A stretch of 41,235 nucleotides of DNA, taken from NCBI GenBank assembly GCA_017453245.1, contig JAFTKM010000013.1, positions 1 through 41,235 on the forward strand, given 5' to 3'. Positions 2,685 to 22,713 of the stretch are shown here, piece after piece. The stretch's first letter is position 1, and the number at the start of each line of letters is the position of its first letter. Below the pieces are notes generated by a model, which saw only the letters and a program-made list of their open reading frames with translations, made no database searches and had not been told where the DNA came from. This stretch comes from Clostridia bacterium (GTDB lineage: Bacteria > Bacillota > Clostridia > Oscillospirales > CAG-272). A program made the position numbers and the translations under genes.

Positions 2685-2776
2685 ATTATACCATTATTTT
2701 AATTAAATTTGCGATATATCGTGTGGGATATATCGCATTTTTGTTTTATTTGTGGTATAATTACGATATATCCCAC
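2685..2776. promoter_or_regulatory. Symmetric divergent promoter/operator for XRE and SLOG-like genes
   Basis: Two extended -10 boxes of identical form, TGGTATAAT, face away from each other. The minus -10 is at 2690-2685 and the plus -10 at 2756-2761, symmetric about position 2723. The centre holds a 10-bp inverted repeat, GCGATATATC (2711-2720) and GATATATCGC (2727-2736), covering the expected -35 regions. A longer inverted repeat pairs GTGGGATATATCG (2723-2735) with CGATATATCCCAC (2764-2776), bracketing the plus -10. The placement fits operators for the adjacent XRE protein. Confidence 0.7.
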
Positions 2777-2794
2777 ATTCAGGAGAGATTTCGT

Positions 2795-3220
2795 ATGTAT
2801 TGTACGTTTTTCGGCCACAGAGATGCGCCGCTAAATTTATTTAATGAAGTTAAAAAGAAAATAATTTATTTATCTGAAAATCATAGAATAAAAGAATATC
2901 TGGTCGGTAATAACGGAAATTTTGATTATATCGTCCAAGCAGTCCTGCAAGCGCTTGTAGAGGAAGGCACCGAAATAAGCTATTCTATTTATCTGTCGCG
3001 AATTGATGAAAAAGCTTTAAACGAACATCAGGAAAACACGGTTTTCTCAGAAGAATTAGAGGGCGTGCCTCCGCGCTTCAGAATATCAAAAAGAAATGAT
3101 CTTCTGATTAAAAAATCCGATTTTGTTATATGCTACGCAAGGCACATCGCCTCAAACACCAAAAAGCTAATATGCAAAGCGTCAAAAAGCGGATTAACCA
3201 TTTTAAGCGTAGATTTGTAA
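2795..3220 (+). CDS. SLOG/DUF1273-like nucleotide-binding protein
   Basis: A 141-aa protein from the ATG at 2795, with Shine-Dalgarno AGGAGAG at 2781-2787. A longer frame from 2723 would run through the operator and lacks a ribosome site. The protein begins with CTFFGHRDAP, contains NNGNFD around residues 38-43 where relatives have a G-G-x-G-x-F-D loop, and has KRNDLLIKKSDFVICYA followed by a SNTKKLICKASKSG helix. These match the Rossmann-like SLOG superfamily (YpsA/DUF1273 type), which binds nucleotides or nucleotide-derived ligands. The exact ligand is unknown. It is divergent from, and probably controlled by, the XRE regulator. Confidence 0.75.
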   Translation: MYCTFFGHRDAPLNLFNEVKKKIIYLSENHRIKEYLVGNNGNFDYIVQAVLQALVEEGTEISYSIYLSRIDEKALNEHQENTVFSEELEGVPPRFRISKRNDLLIKKSDFVICYARHIASNTKKLICKASKSGLTILSVDL

Positions 3221-3288
3221 TGTTTACTTTCCAATTATAGGTAAAATATATGCCGAGCGTTTATTTTCCTTTTCTTAAGACAAAATAG

Positions 3289-3297
3289 TGTTATAAC
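3289..3297 (+). promoter_or_regulatory. Possible extended -10 promoter for the GPH transporter
   Basis: TG-T-TATAAC (-10 at 3292-3297) has no good -35 hexamer at the correct distance. An imperfect hairpin (TCCCGAGGCGG near 3310 with CCGCGAGGGGA near 3335) lies in the leader before the Shine-Dalgarno. The evidence is weak. Confidence 0.35.
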
Positions 3298-3359
3298 GCA
3301 AAAAACGTCTTCCCGAGGCGGATATCACATCTTGCCGCGAGGGGATAAAGGAGATAAAT

Positions 3360-4754
3360 ATGAGCATCTCAAGGATAAATGAGAGCCGACCGTTCGGCTT
3401 ACGCGACAAGCTCGGATACCTGTTTGGAGATTTTGGAAACGATTTTACCTTTATACTTTCGTCGAGCTTTCTCTTGAAATTTTACACCGACGTTATGGGG
3501 ATCGCGCCGTGGATAGTCGGACTTGTTATAACCTTTGCAAGATTTGTCGACGGCTTTACCGACGTAACGATGGGCCGTATCGCGGATAGATCGCGGGTGA
3601 CCGAGGTGGGCAAGTTCAAGCCCTGGATAAGACGAATGGCGGCGCCGGTGGCAATAGCCTCCTTCCTTATATACCAAAGCGCGTTTGCGGGAGCGGCTAT
3701 GTGGTTTAAGATCACCTGGCTTGTGGTGACGTATATACTCTGGGGCTCGATCTTCTACACCTCGATCAACATCCCCTACGGCTCTATGGCATCATCGATC
3801 TCTCCGGAGCCGGGCGACAGACAGTCGCTCTCTACCTTCAGAACAATGGGCAGCACCCTCGCGGGAGTTATCGTAGGCGCGGGCATTCCCCTATTCGCAT
3901 ACGACAAGGTCGGAGAGAATACCGTCTTGAACGGTCCGAGGTTTACCCTTATCGCGGGAATCTTCTCAATTCTCTCGATAATTTGCTATCTGCTCTGCTA
4001 TACCCTGACGACCGAGCGTGTGGTAAGCGATACCGCTCCGAGAGAACAACCGAGTGTGGGCAGGATGCTTGGGGATGCCATAAAAAACAGAGCTCTCATC
4101 TCAATCATCGTAGGCTCGATCGTGATGCTGCTAGCTCAGCTGACAATGCAATCAATGTCGAACTATATATACCCTAACTACTACGGTAACGTGAGGGCTC
4201 AATCGGTCTCAACGCTGGCTATGATGGGCGGTATGATGATCGCGGCGGCGGTGGCAAAGCCGCTTGCCAAACGATTCGGCAAAGCAGAGATAAGCGCGGC
4301 GTCAAACCTGCTTGCGGCGGCTGTATGCATACTTTTATTTGCAATCAGGCCTGAAAACGTGTGGATTTACGTTTTGGTCAATCTCGTGAGCTGGCTCGGA
4401 CTTGGCATATTTGCGATGGTGTCCTGGGCGCTTATAACAGACGTTATAGACGATGCAGAATTAAGAAACGGACGGCGTGAGGACGGCTCGATATATGCGC
4501 TCTACTCCTTCGCGAGAAAGCTCGGTCAGGCGGCGTCTGCAGGTCTGACGGGAGCTCTGTTATCCGCGATAGGATACAGTGATAAGACAGCCTTTGACGA
4601 GGGAGTGCTGAGGGGTGTGTACGACATCTCAACTCTCGTCCCCGCCCTCGGCTTCGGTGCTTTGGCCTTGATACTGTGGTTTTGGTATCCCTTGCACAAG
4701 CGAAAGGTGGAGGAAAACGTCAGGCTGCTCGAGTTGAAGCATAAAAGTAGATAA
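3360..4754 (+). CDS. GPH-family sugar:cation symporter (MFS, MelB/UidB type)
   Basis: A 464-aa polytopic membrane protein, the usual size for the glycoside-pentoside-hexuronide:cation symporters. The N-terminus carries the family pattern: LGYLFGDFGNDF, then FYTDVMGIAPWIVGL, then a DGFTDVTMGRIADRSR segment and GKFKPWIRR, corresponding to the conserved cation-site Asp residues and the cytoplasmic loop 2-3 motif. About 12 hydrophobic segments follow, with a second conserved region at MVSWALITDVIDDAELRNG. It should take up a glycoside, hexuronide or pentoside with H+ or Na+. No glycosidase is adjacent, so the substrate cannot be assigned. It appears to be a single-gene unit ending at the 4761 terminator. 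Confidence 0.88.
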   Translation: MSISRINESRPFGLRDKLGYLFGDFGNDFTFILSSSFLLKFYTDVMGIAPWIVGLVITFARFVDGFTDVTMGRIADRSRVTEVGKFKPWIRRMAAPVAIASFLIYQSAFAGAAMWFKITWLVVTYILWGSIFYTSINIPYGSMASSISPEPGDRQSLSTFRTMGSTLAGVIVGAGIPLFAYDKVGENTVLNGPRFTLIAGIFSILSIICYLLCYTLTTERVVSDTAPREQPSVGRMLGDAIKNRALISIIVGSIVMLLAQLTMQSMSNYIYPNYYGNVRAQSVSTLAMMGGMMIAAAVAKPLAKRFGKAEISAASNLLAAAVCILLFAIRPENVWIYVLVNLVSWLGLGIFAMVSWALITDVIDDAELRNGRREDGSIYALYSFARKLGQAASAGLTGALLSAIGYSDKTAFDEGVLRGVYDISTLVPALGFGALALILWFWYPLHKRKVEENVRLLELKHKSR

Positions 4755-4760
4755 AAGATA

Positions 4761-4799
4761 GGCCATCTCCGGAGCAAATCGCCCTGAGATGGTCTTTTT
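4761..4799 (+). terminator. Terminator after the GPH symporter
   Basis: A 9-bp stem (GGCCATCTC 4761-4769 with GAGATGGTC 4786-4794, one G-T pair) followed by a T5 run. Confidence 0.75.
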
Positions 4800-4856
4800 C
4801 ATTGCTCGTTTAGGAATATTTCACAATTTGTTTTATAAAAAATACACAATGATCAT

Positions 4857-4885
4857 TTGACATTTTTGTAAATATGTGATACAAT
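4857..4885 (+). promoter_or_regulatory. Strong sigma-A promoter of the DUF1538-PII operon
   Basis: Consensus TTGACA (4857-4862), a 17-bp spacer, and TACAAT (4880-4885) with an extended TG at 4877-4878. It drives the three-gene operon 4925-7228. Confidence 0.85.
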
Positions 4886-4924
4886 AATAGTAGAATAAAT
4901 AATTAATGGGAGGTATGACAAAAA

Positions 4925-6451
4925 TTGCATTCGGTTTTAGTCAAAAAGCTTAAGGAATCACTCATATCGGTGCTTCCGATAGTGGCCATCGTTTTCGTAC
5001 TTAATTTCACACCACTTATCAACTTTACTACGCCTGAAATAGTCGTATTTCTCATTTCGGCAGTATTTCTTATACTCGGTATAGCGCTGTTCAATCTCGG
5101 CGCTGACCTTGCGATGACGCCTATGGGTGAGCATATCGGCTCGGGACTTACAAAGCTCAGGAGCCTTCCCCTGCTCCTCGGCGTATGCTTCGCAATGGGA
5201 ATACTTATTACGGTTGCTGAGCCCGACCTTACGGTGCTTGCAAACCAGGTATCGATGATAATGAACCCGAAGCTCCTTATCTTTACGGTAGGCGCGGGCG
5301 TTGGTCTGTTGCTTGTTATCTCGATAATCAAGATAGTAACGAGAACCTCGCTCTCGAAGCTGCTTATGTTCTTCTATATGCTGCTCTTCGCGGTAACGTC
5401 TATACTTATCGCAAGCGGAAACAGCGATCTTATCCCCATGGGATTTGACTCCGGCGGAGTTACCACAGGTCCTATCACAGTTCCCTTCATCATGGCGCTG
5501 GGCGTGGGTATCGCGGCAACGATCGGCGGTAAGGACGCGAGTGAAAACTCCTTCGGTCTTATCGCGCTCTGCTCCGTAGGTCCTATTCTCGCGGTGCTTG
5601 TACTCGGTTGTACCGTTTCGGGAGAGATGGAGCCCTATGACCTCTCTCAGTACATTCTCAACTACGGTTTCTCGCACATTATCGAGGCGATCCTCGAGAC
5701 TGCGAAGGAGGTGCTCATAGCCCTCGGACTTATCGTGCTGTTCTTTGTTGCGCTCCAGATCGCGGTGCTTAAGCTCCCCAAAAAGAGACTTATCCAGATC
5801 GCGGTCGGTATCGGCTACACCTTCCTCGGTCTTGTTATCTTCCTCTCTGCGGTTAAGATCGGCTTTATGCCTATCGGCTACAAGCTCGGCACGGAGATCG
5901 CGGGCAATAAGGTCGTGGCAATCATCTTCAGCCTTGTTATCGGTATGGTCGTCGTGCTCGCGGAGCCCGCGGTACACGTGCTTAACAAGCAGGTTGAGGA
6001 GATCACCGAGGGTACAGTCAGCAGAAAATCGATGATGATAGCGTTGTCTATTGGTGTCGGTCTGTCTATCTGTCTGTCCATCGTAAGAATTATCTTCGAC
6101 TTCAGTATACTGTTCTATCTTATCCCCGGATATATGATATCCTTAGGGTTGTCCTTCTTCGTCCCAGGTCTTTACACCGCAATCGCGTTTGACTCGGGCG
6201 GAGTTGCATCCGGTCCTCTCACCTCGAGCTTCATCCTTCCCTTCGCGGTAGGCGTATGCGCAGGTGTTACGGGCGGTGTTGACAGCATTCTCTCCAACGC
6301 ATTCGGAATCGTAGCGATGGTTGCTATGGCTCCTCTTATCACAATTCAGCTGCTCGGCTTCAGATCGATCATCTCCAAGAAGATCAGCGACGGCATCGCG
6401 ATGAAGAAGATACTCAGCGCGGACGACGAGCAGATCATAGACTTTATGTAA
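4925..6451 (+). CDS. DUF1538 family integral membrane protein (two repeats)
   Basis: A 508-aa polytopic protein with an internal duplication. AEPDLTVLANQV (98-109) recurs as AEPAVHVLNKQV (346-357), and FDSGGVTTGPIT (174-185) recurs as FDSGGVASGPLT (422-433), each followed by a glycine-rich membrane segment. Two-fold repeats with conserved Gly/Asp loops are typical of transporters, but no substrate is established for DUF1538. An in-frame TGA at 4916-4918 bounds the frame. The only plausible start is TTG at 4925, 11 nt after Shine-Dalgarno GGGAGG (4908-4913). An out-of-frame ATG at 4915 opens a 12-codon peptide overlapping this start. Two PII-like genes follow in the same operon, so its activity is probably controlled by PII-type sensors. 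Confidence 0.85.
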   Translation: MHSVLVKKLKESLISVLPIVAIVFVLNFTPLINFTTPEIVVFLISAVFLILGIALFNLGADLAMTPMGEHIGSGLTKLRSLPLLLGVCFAMGILITVAEPDLTVLANQVSMIMNPKLLIFTVGAGVGLLLVISIIKIVTRTSLSKLLMFFYMLLFAVTSILIASGNSDLIPMGFDSGGVTTGPITVPFIMALGVGIAATIGGKDASENSFGLIALCSVGPILAVLVLGCTVSGEMEPYDLSQYILNYGFSHIIEAILETAKEVLIALGLIVLFFVALQIAVLKLPKKRLIQIAVGIGYTFLGLVIFLSAVKIGFMPIGYKLGTEIAGNKVVAIIFSLVIGMVVVLAEPAVHVLNKQVEEITEGTVSRKSMMIALSIGVGLSICLSIVRIIFDFSILFYLIPGYMISLGLSFFVPGLYTAIAFDSGGVASGPLTSSFILPFAVGVCAGVTGGVDSILSNAFGIVAMVAMAPLITIQLLGFRSIISKKISDGIAMKKILSADDEQIIDFM

Positions 6452-6464
6452 GGAGGCTGAGGAT

Positions 6465-6887
6465 ATGGCAAGAGCTTACAGAATTAAAAAAGGCGCAAAG
6501 CCCACTACAAGCGAGACCGCGCGCTCTACGGGAATGACAGCCCCAAAGAAGCTGATGCTTCTCTTTACAATCGTAAACCGTAACAAAGCGGAATTCTACG
6601 TTGACGTGCTCCAGAAATTCGAGATCAATATGCAGCTCGTGCTCGCTGCAAACGGAACGGCAGACACAAGCATCCAGAGCCTTCTCGGTCTTACGGACTC
6701 CGAAAAGTCGGTGATCATCAGCGTGGTAAGACGCGACAAGAGCCGCGCGGCGCTTAGCGAGCTCGAGGAAAAGTTCAAGACGGTAAAGGGCGGTAAGGGT
6801 ATCGCCTACACCGTGCCCATGACGAGCACTATCGGTGTCGCAATCTATCAGTTCCTTAGCAATACAACAAGTGGAGGTTTAATATGA
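6465..6887 (+). CDS. PII-like protein, first of a tandem pair
   Basis: A 140-aa protein with a basic N-terminal extension of about 27 residues, then a ferredoxin-like PII core: KLMLLFTIVNRNKAEFYVDVL (beta1-alpha1), a short T-loop region near AANGTADTSIQSLLGL (61-76), and a C-terminal KGGKGIAYTVPM (108-119) where PII proteins have the GDGKIFVLPV-type B-loop. The T-loop is short and lacks the uridylylated Tyr motif of GlnB/GlnK. It follows DUF1538 by 13 nt with a good Shine-Dalgarno and overlaps the next gene by 4 nt. It is probably a small-molecule-binding trimer that regulates the membrane protein. The ligand is unknown. Confidence 0.75.
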   Translation: MARAYRIKKGAKPTTSETARSTGMTAPKKLMLLFTIVNRNKAEFYVDVLQKFEINMQLVLAANGTADTSIQSLLGLTDSEKSVIISVVRRDKSRAALSELEEKFKTVKGGKGIAYTVPMTSTIGVAIYQFLSNTTSGGLI

Positions 6888-7228
6888 AAAGCTACAAGCA
6901 CGAAGTAATAATGTGTATAGTTAACTCCGGCTTCTCAGAGGCGGTTATGGATGCGGCAAGAGAGCTTGGCGCAAGAGGCGGTACGGTTATAAGAGGACGC
7001 GGAACGGCAAACCTCGAGGCTGAGAAGCTCTACGGAATCGCTATCCAGCCCGAGAAGGAGATCGTAATGATCCTTGTTGAATCCTCCCTTAAGAACGATA
7101 TTCTCCACGCGCTCTACAAGGCAGTCGGACTTAACACTCCCGGCCAGGGTATCGCATTTGCTATGCCCGTTGAGGACGCAGTCGGACTTAATGCCACTCC
7201 CATCGAGGAGTTCAAAAACGAGGAATAA
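6884..7228 (+). CDS. PII-like nitrogen-regulatory-family protein, second of the pair
   Basis: A 114-aa protein, close to the canonical PII length of 112. The order matches PII: HEVIMCIVNSGFSEAVMDAA (beta1-alpha1), GARGGTVIRGRGTANLEAE (residues 29-47, the beta2 to T-loop position of GVxGMTV...RGxG), EIVMILVESSLKNDILHAL (beta3-alpha2), then TPGQGIAFAMPVEDAVGL (85-102, the B-loop and beta4). The start overlaps the preceding stop as ATGA, so translation is coupled. The T-loop differs from GlnB/GlnK. It may form homotrimers or mixed complexes with the upstream paralogue, acting on the DUF1538 protein. Confidence 0.82.
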   Translation: MKSYKHEVIMCIVNSGFSEAVMDAARELGARGGTVIRGRGTANLEAEKLYGIAIQPEKEIVMILVESSLKNDILHALYKAVGLNTPGQGIAFAMPVEDAVGLNATPIEEFKNEE

Positions 7229-7267
7229 GTCAAAAATTGACTACTATAAGTTAGCAAATCCGGCGCA

Positions 7268-7299
7268 ATGGCGTTGTGTTCCTAAGAGCACAACGCCAT
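7268..7299 (+). other. Strong hairpin after the PII operon
   Basis: An 11-bp perfect stem, ATGGCGTTGTG (7268-7278) and CACAACGCCAT (7289-7299), with a 10-nt loop. The following bases (CTCTATTGTG) are a poor T-tract, so it may be a weak terminator or an RNA-stabilising 3' hairpin ahead of the terminator at 7320. Confidence 0.6.
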
Positions 7300-7319
7300 C
7301 TCTATTGTGTCAACAAAAG

Positions 7320-7350
7320 AAAGCCTACCGATTTCTCGGTAGGCTTTTAA
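7320..7350. terminator. Bidirectional terminator between the PII operon and the rpsJ-rplQ superoperon
   Basis: A 12-bp perfect stem, AAAGCCTACCGA (7320-7331) and TCGGTAGGCTTT (7336-7347), with a 4-nt loop. T-rich sequence lies on both strands. It ends the long leftward ribosomal operon and the rightward PII operon. Confidence 0.9.
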
Positions 7351-7366
7351 TATTTAAAGTAACTAA

Positions 7367-7735
7367 TTACTTCTCAGAAGTCTCTTCTGCGGGTGCGTCA
7401 ACAGCTACGAGTCTTACGATAGCAGTCTCTGCGCCGTCGCCACGACGGGGACCCATCTTGTAGATCTGGGTGTAACCGCCCTCTACCTCAGCGTACTGAG
7501 GAGCGATCGTGGAGAATAGTTTCTTAGCAACGTCTTCCTTGGTGATGTACTCAAGAGCTGCTCTGTAGTTTGCGAGACCGCCCTTCTTACCGAGGGTGAT
7601 CATCTCGTCCGCCTTAGCGGAAACCTCCTGAGCTCTTGTGTAAGTGGTCTCGATCTTGCCACATTCAAGAAGAAGAGTTACCATACCTCTGAGCATAGCT
7701 TTACGCTGTGCAGTAGTTCTGCCAAGCTTTCTCAT
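7367..7735 (-). CDS. rplQ: 50S ribosomal protein L17
   Basis: A 122-aa large-subunit protein, the last gene of the leftward superoperon, 21 nt after rpoA. The N-terminus has the L17 signature [18 protein letters not shown], and the C-terminal half carries [18 protein letters not shown]. In the ribosome L17 sits near the peptide exit on 23S rRNA. The C-terminus ends in an Ala/Glu-rich tail (APAEETSEK). Transcription stops at the 7320 terminator. Confidence 0.96.
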
Positions 7736-22454: not shown

Positions 22455-22713
22455 TGTTCTTTGTCCTCCTTGTTAGTATTGCTTAATACCGTTTTAAGAA
22501 GGGCGATAAGTTTCACACTGCGCCGGGCGTATCATTTTCGCCCTAACAAAATCAGTTCGTCAAATCCTACCGCAAAGGACCACGAACCGAAAAAAACGCA
22601 GAATACCCCTAATGAGGGTAAACTATAGCTTCGCCCGGTTAAATATCGGACATACTCCACGGAAATTCCCTACCTCGATGGGTAGCCACCTCCCGCTTCA
22701 TCGCATATCAAGC
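22455..22713 (-). promoter_or_regulatory. Structured 5' leader of the ribosomal superoperon with attenuator-like hairpin
   Basis: About 255 nt of untranslated leader. In transcript order the stems are CTACC/GGTAG (22670-22685), TACCC/GGGTA (22604-22620) followed 7 nt later by a T7 run (22596-22590) like a weak terminator, GTTCGT/ACGAAC (22555-22587), AGGGCGA/TCGCCCT (22500-22544), and a small GTATT/AATAC stem near 22477. This arrangement suggests transcription attenuation or ribosomal-protein feedback. No known leader family was recognised. Confidence 0.5.

Follow-up and report, generated by a model that had tools for sequence, protein, structure and literature searches.

A 41,235-nucleotide stretch of DNA from a Clostridia bacterium (contig JAFTKM010000013.1, positions 1 to 41,235; hereafter the window) encodes, on its + strand, a two-domain DUF1538 membrane protein followed by two small PII-family proteins, referred to here as PII-a and PII-b. 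Searches for DUF1538 yielded 260 loci (four sets pooled), and at 256 of them PII lay within 300 bp, as a gene or as a fused domain; PII was seen as the only conserved neighbor of DUF1538. The comparisons indicate a functional link between DUF1538 and PII that comparative genomics could hardly make stronger, and we consider it reasonably probable that a dedicated PII pair gates a monovalent cation/H+ antiporter in response to a ligand. The observations established here are gene linkage, co-occurrence across genomes, gene fusion, the relationship of both small proteins to PII, an antiparallel charge pattern and the loss of ligand residues.

Linkage was scored on the best-scoring DUF1538 matches listed, with some genomes contributing more than one locus. 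PII lay within 300 bp at 88 of 90 loci in a sample of the window's class (L004-L093), the contig ending 27 and 87 bp after the DUF1538 gene in the two misses (L040 and L073); at 29 of 30 in a phylum sample (L177-L206), with the miss at a contig end (L187); at 59 of 60 in a second phylum sample (L244-L303); and at all 80 loci on GTDB contigs (L097-L176), which are not independent because all are close relatives. The sole true miss was L268 (DUF1538 at 3137-4636, genome G498), and a tandem PII was present on another contig of the same genome. Nineteen further loci found by their PII were left out of the counts, and L095 was missed by the automated adjacency scoring because of an early start codon. 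When 12 genomes with weak or single matches were re-examined (17 loci), the genes were adjacent at 11 loci and a contig ended at three; the other three were two readings of one broken DUF1538 gene in genome G343 and a DUF1538 fragment, below the length cut-off for ORFs, beside a tandem PII. The G343 gene (L236) was broken by several stops and the DUF1538-linked PII subtype was also not found in that genome; the two seem to have been lost together. In the flanking control at the class loci, 129 nearest flanking genes were found by longest open reading frame (ORF). A Pfam scan of 116 of these (E up to 1e-6) showed each family in 4 neighbors at most. Chance gene order was rejected by this control together with the genome co-occurrence table. 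An initial annotation of this DNA had named a conserved neighborhood as its own check, and that conservation was found in the spacing counts and in direct fusions.

Co-occurrence was also tight. In the sample of 291 genomes from the class to which the window belongs, DUF1538 and the linked PII subtype were both present in 97; 5 carried DUF1538 only, 2 the PII subtype only and 187 neither (Fisher p 3e-68); the subtype was present in 97/102 genomes with DUF1538, and DUF1538 in 97/99 genomes with the subtype. The threshold for the subtype (E <1e-15) was set after inspection showed no matches from E 6e-18 to 1e-9, and the 16 class genomes with PII matches weaker than 1e-15 were without DUF1538. 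In the five DUF1538-only genomes, the contig ended (G071, G157 and G196), the PII was cut by a contig end (G111), or short pieces of both genes were present (G276). DUF1538 was found in about one third of the genomes, 102/291 in the class and 138/398 in the phylum. The window's own genome (64% complete, 1.59 Mb) had one DUF1538 protein only and no further Pfam P-II match. Plasmid records were searched by tblastn with the window DUF1538, a Methylocystis DUF1538 and a Methylocystis PII, and each query returned the same 9 of 72,556 records, one of which, at 2.6 Mb, may be a chromosome. Three of the nine were inspected, and an annotated P-II gene adjoined DUF1538 in all three; two of these were from Alphaproteobacteria with the order DUF1538-DUF1538-PII, the one from Chelativorans having a short first DUF1538.

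Nine complete proteins joined two DUF1538 domains to a C-terminal PII (L061, L067, L075, L077, L078, L080, L086, L093 and L223). A tandem-PII gene lay directly upstream of seven of them, and the other two started at most 145 bp from the contig start. At L218, one PII was fused to DUF1538 and the other was separate, and in relatives the PII pair was often a single fused gene (tandem PII). Copy number was counted in the four DUF1538-found sets at loci without an ORF cut by an end. One DUF1538 domain was accompanied by one PII domain at 8/8 complete loci; two DUF1538 domains were accompanied by two PII domains at 198 loci, one at 19, three at 6 and none at 3; and eight loci had three or four DUF1538 domains. 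PII copy number is read as tracking DUF1538 domain number loosely, not strictly, since contig ends affected part of these loci with one PII domain or none. The initial annotation had described a transporter-plus-two-sensor module; the conserved unit of transporter and PII held, whereas two separate PII genes were not the general rule, the pair often being fused and single-domain loci having one PII.

Both small proteins of the window were assigned to the PII family. PII-b (114 amino acids, 6884..7228) scored 26.7 bits against Pfam PF00543 (P-II; cut-off 25 bits) and PII-a (140 amino acids, 6465..6887) scored 17.2 bits, below that cut-off. The two shared 23% identity over 98 columns, and in profile-profile comparison the PII-a profile (21 rows) matched the PII-b profile (25 rows) with a probability of 99.6% and E 4e-25. 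The proposal that PII-a is not a PII, based on NCBIfam matches that were confined to weak F1-delta and TraG matches, was rejected by this profile match. For L029, a relative with a natural PII tandem, the AlphaFold model (57 rows; predicted local distance difference test score, pLDDT, 86; predicted template modeling score, pTM, 0.81) had two domains, each in beta-alpha-beta-beta-alpha-beta order as in the ferredoxin-like PII fold; this prediction is for the relative and not for the window proteins themselves. The nearest solved sequences to the tandem PII profile were PII proteins, with PDB 9p1x as the best (E 2.7e-7). That entry resembles the window unit in holding two different P-II chains, possibly NifI1 and NifI2; unlike a nif setting, the window unit stands beside a sugar symporter and ribosomal genes. 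In the alignment and tree, PII-a was the faster-changing copy of the pair. A clean split of PII-a from PII-b was not found in the tree, in which 38 of 45 sampled PII-a sequences fell in one long-branch clade and 7 elsewhere. PII-b was more conserved, with the motifs GGT..RG.G...EKE and PG.GI.F. The basic N-terminal extension of PII-a and the RGRG stretch of PII-b described earlier were both present in the sequence; a short T-loop was not confined to PII-a, both proteins being short there compared with canonical PII. At L211 (3566-4444), a PII of the DUF1538-linked subtype was observed beside a DUF1622 small membrane protein and without DUF1538, and the DUF1622 protein is possibly a second membrane partner of the subtype (one case only).

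Ligand-site residues were compared with GlnZ (3mhy), using the stretch given by the alignment. The PIIs mostly kept Gly35, Lys58 and Gly89, with Lys58 retained in 170/197 PII-a and 186/196 PII-b rows. The Lys90 position was I, V or L in 194/197 PII-a and 186/196 PII-b rows, and I in both window proteins. Gln39 was not kept, the commonest three residues being S/N/H in PII-a and H/K/E in PII-b, and glycine was commonest at the Arg101 position (122/137 PII-b and 79/112 PII-a sequences in which the motif could be placed). GlnK reads ATP and 2-oxoglutarate; in GlnB/GlnK, Lys90 of the B-loop contacts the ATP phosphates and Gln39 of the T-loop serves 2-oxoglutarate binding. PII-a and PII-b, which lack both this lysine and this glutamine, therefore probably read their ligand differently from GlnB/GlnK. 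The ligand is probably a nucleotide, and an adenine nucleotide, cyclic di-AMP (c-di-AMP) included, would be a reasonable first guess for a cation-control ligand in Firmicutes.

The DUF1538 protein (508 amino acids, 4925..6451) matched PF07556 with 403 bits (gathering score 22.6; E 2.3e-121) in two domains, at 4979..5611 and 5732..6361, in keeping with its first description as a two-fold repeated membrane protein. Its AlphaFold model (79 rows; pLDDT 93.4, pTM 0.92) had seven helix positions per half, and helix breaks were predicted in both halves at an AEP motif (98/100 and 346/348) and an SGG..GP motif (181/185 and 428/431). In the DUF1538 alignment, E99, P100, E347, P348 and D423 were invariant and D101 and D175 were at least 90% conserved; E99, D101, D175, E347 and D423 lie at or near the predicted broken helices and are likely ion sites in this model. 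Lysine plus arginine (K+R) bias was calculated as odd versus even loops, with the loops set by hand from the AlphaFold model. In fused proteins the bias was positive in 174/174 first domains and negative in 174/174 second domains; in separate proteins it was positive in 25/25 A proteins and negative in 27/27 B proteins. Nine single-domain DUF1538 proteins ranged from -2 to +5, seven of the nine being positive. With inner loops only, the sign was kept in 174/174 first domains, 159/174 second domains, 24/25 A proteins and 23/27 B proteins. The same loops applied to later-fetched loci gave 34/34 first domains, 34/34 second domains, 21/21 A proteins and 19/21 B proteins, and five later-fetched single-domain proteins ranged from -2 to +3. 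A tree of 121 DUF1538 domains (30 of each fused half without close GTDB relatives, plus all separate and single domains of the charge analysis) placed A-type, B-type and single domains in three clades with none misplaced.

The two DUF1538 halves therefore look, by their charge, like an antiparallel inverted repeat. Domain 1 is UmpA-like with its N-terminus predicted inside, and domain 2 is UmpB-like with its N-terminus predicted outside and its C-terminal tail predicted cytosolic (Pfam, charge bias and domain tree). The single-domain proteins are likely dual-topology homodimers, as judged from charge. EmrE/SMR and DUF606 proteins are dual-topology or antiparallel, and their single, paired and fused forms have weak, opposite and opposite charge bias, like DUF1538; unlike them, DUF1538 has 7-helix halves and PII proteins alongside. 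The 7+7 arrangement might be UraA/SLC26-like. At L166 (725-5515), a DUF1538 frame was open for 1596 codons, which may be a start-codon artifact or a fusion with the upstream gene.

The initial annotation had called the DUF1538 partner uncharacterized, a description that a published system supersedes. UmpAB of Halomonas zhaodongensis is a DUF1538 pair that works as a heterodimer, and assays in E. coli showed its Na+(Li+,K+)/H+ antiport, which depends on pH (PMC5484666); with this antiport published a substrate class can be proposed for DUF1538. Like UmpAB, the window protein belongs to the same Pfam family and has two homologous DUF1538 halves, which in UmpAB act together as a heterodimer (PMC5484666); unlike UmpAB, encoded by separate genes, it is one fused protein and falls below both equivalog cut-offs. 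Precedents for a transporter with a PII partner are also known. The SbtA-SbtB bicarbonate system resembles the window unit in pairing a transporter gene with that of its own non-canonical PII partner, and differs in its transporter family and in placing trimeric SbtB on trimeric SbtA, versus a PII pair on an inverted repeat (PMC10710835). AmtB-GlnK is likewise a conserved transporter-PII gene pair, in which the PII plugs the transporter, whereas GlnK is uridylylated and Amt is of another family (PMC10710835).

In the mechanism that we favor, the DUF1538 protein would consist of two inverted 7-helix repeats, one UmpA-like and N-in, the other UmpB-like and N-out, and would exchange Na+, K+ or Li+ for H+. 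PII-a and PII-b would be cytosolic and most likely assemble together, because they form one chain in many relatives. The pair would dock on the cytosolic face of the antiporter, and ligand-bound PIIs would switch it, more likely off than on. Docking, the sign of control, the ligand class and the substrate of this protein are what we infer; antiport itself is taken from the literature on a family member. We also put forward, tentatively, that DUF1538 may be an obligately PII-partnered antiporter class, which would have passed from dual-topology single-domain proteins with one PII, through antiparallel UmpA/UmpB pairs, to a single inverted-repeat protein of 14 helices accompanied by two unlike PIIs. 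The PIIs of this class would respond to some ligand that is not ATP/2-oxoglutarate and so link cation/pH exchange to metabolism.

Several points weigh against PII gating of a cation antiporter. Transport does not require PII, since UmpAB was active in E. coli when supplied on an insert of 4.2 kb that is described as holding ORF1-ORF4 (ORF3-4 being umpAB) and no PII (PMC5484666). Against the UmpA and UmpB equivalogs NF041627 and NF041628, the window protein scored 146.6 and 127 bits, far below their cut-offs of 490 and 500; its substrate is thus proposed by likeness, and the protein is said to work like UmpAB and is not filed as UmpAB. PMC10710835 describes PII control only for transporters able to act as trimers, and a trimer is unproven for DUF1538. 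The two genomes with the PII subtype only (G176 and G281) carried orphan tandem PIIs (L207 4230-4943 and L208 3821-4474) with DUF1538 not nearby. The topology rests on charge counts with hand-set loops, and the charge signal was not perfectly clean because acidic residues were biased too. In the aspartate plus glutamate control, 36 first domains of fused proteins were above zero and 105 below, 99 second domains were above and 44 below, 18 A proteins were above and 2 below, and 0 B proteins were above and 23 below; the acidic bias was weaker than that of K+R, with opposite sign in fused domains and the same sign in separate A/B proteins. Mean-field direct coupling analysis of DUF1538 with PII, on 243 pairs for the last PII and 222 for the first (effective sequence numbers 193 and 179), gave no inter-protein signal. 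Cytosolic loops accounted for 0.14 and 0.24 of the top-50 pairs, no enrichment over the baseline of 0.22, and inter-protein pairs among the top 300 numbered 54 and 59, fewer than the 88.6 expected; this outcome is negative or the alignment is too shallow.

No paper joining DUF1538 or UmpAB with PII was found in a search that had subscription papers and preprints outside its scope. The terms PII and P-II are not in the main text of PMC5484666; among other papers mentioning DUF1538, PII was not found in PMC5996927 and PMC6055358, and the single "PII" in PMC7221264 is part of a residue motif.

An unlikely alternative is that the PIIs sense nothing and belong to the DUF1538 complex as structural or assembly subunits, on which the asymmetric transporter depends for folding or stability. 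Near-obligate co-inheritance, direct fusion, the loss of canonical ligand residues and the tendency of PII number to follow DUF1538 domain number would all suit such a role. UmpAB alone was nevertheless active in E. coli (PMC5484666), and PII-b retains a conserved loop region and the B-loop glycines, as expected of a ligand-binding protein. Nearly as strong, and also unlikely, is transport of another substrate (e.g., carboxylate, bicarbonate or ammonium), with the PIIs gating its import on the model of SbtA-SbtB or AmtB-GlnK. In PMC10710835, the transporters named as being under PII control are nutrient uptake systems. The distance of the window protein from the UmpA/UmpB cut-offs would fit this, as would the finding of no cation riboswitch at the Rfam gathering score at 20+20 relative loci. 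Against it stand the invariant acidic residues at the predicted broken helices, and to our knowledge the only assayed DUF1538 member is a cation/H+ antiporter. It is very improbable that the PIIs are general regulators of transcription or an enzyme, sequestered at the membrane by DUF1538 with their main target elsewhere, as GlnK-AmtB sequestration and the two orphan tandem PIIs might suggest, given that DUF1538 accompanies the PII subtype in all but two of its genomes and that covalent fusion would tether PII permanently.

The remaining features of the unit were read from the + strand. A sigma-70-type promoter (TTGACA-17-TACAAT, with TG ahead of the second hexamer) at 4857..4885 matched 11/12 consensus positions, as a consensus match only. 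It ranked first among 6 promoter-like sites in 4740-7400, a number that is not unusual against shuffles (mean 3.2, sd 2.0), whereas this particular site is unusual; the single promoter first described ahead of the unit agrees with it. A Shine-Dalgarno-like GGGAGG (4908..4913) lies 11 nt 5' of the TTG start of the DUF1538 gene at 4925, which is followed by a 13-nt gap before the PII-a gene. Shine-Dalgarno sequences precede PII-a (AAGGAGG, 6450..6456) and PII-b (GGAGG, 6873..6877), and the two PII genes overlap by 4 nt (6884-6887), as the initial annotation had noted. A terminator-like hairpin of 14 pairs with a weak T-tail lies 3' of the unit (7268..7299, +); there were 4 such sites in the region and a mean of 2.4 in shuffles. 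No riboswitch scored above the Rfam gathering score at the window unit, and the 20+20 relative loci of the riboswitch control gave only tRNA, RNase P, one flavin mononucleotide (FMN) aptamer and one c-di-AMP aptamer. At L184, a c-di-AMP riboswitch (2913-3085) lies just after the DUF1538-PII unit and, by eye, precedes an asparagine synthase-like ORF and not the unit. The upstream neighbor of the window unit is a GPH sugar symporter (Pfam/NCBIfam), and ribosomal genes read by eye lie downstream and convergent. Elsewhere in the window, an S10-Clostridia ribosomal protein leader was above its gathering score at 22631-22710 (-), and a 165-amino acid ORF with an FGHRDAP stretch at 2723-3220 (+), without a Pfam or NCBIfam family of note, presumably resembles a SLOG-type nucleotide-binding protein.

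The near-obligate PII partnering of DUF1538 in the genomes sampled suggests that cells gate salt/pH exchange by a dedicated metabolic sensor. A PII partner of its own would bring metabolic signals to bear on a common antiporter family. If DUF1538 is PII-gated, PII control would extend beyond nutrient uptake and would not be confined to trimeric transporters. The single, paired, fused and PII-fused forms are a tractable series for the joint asymmetry of inverted-repeat transporters and their regulators.

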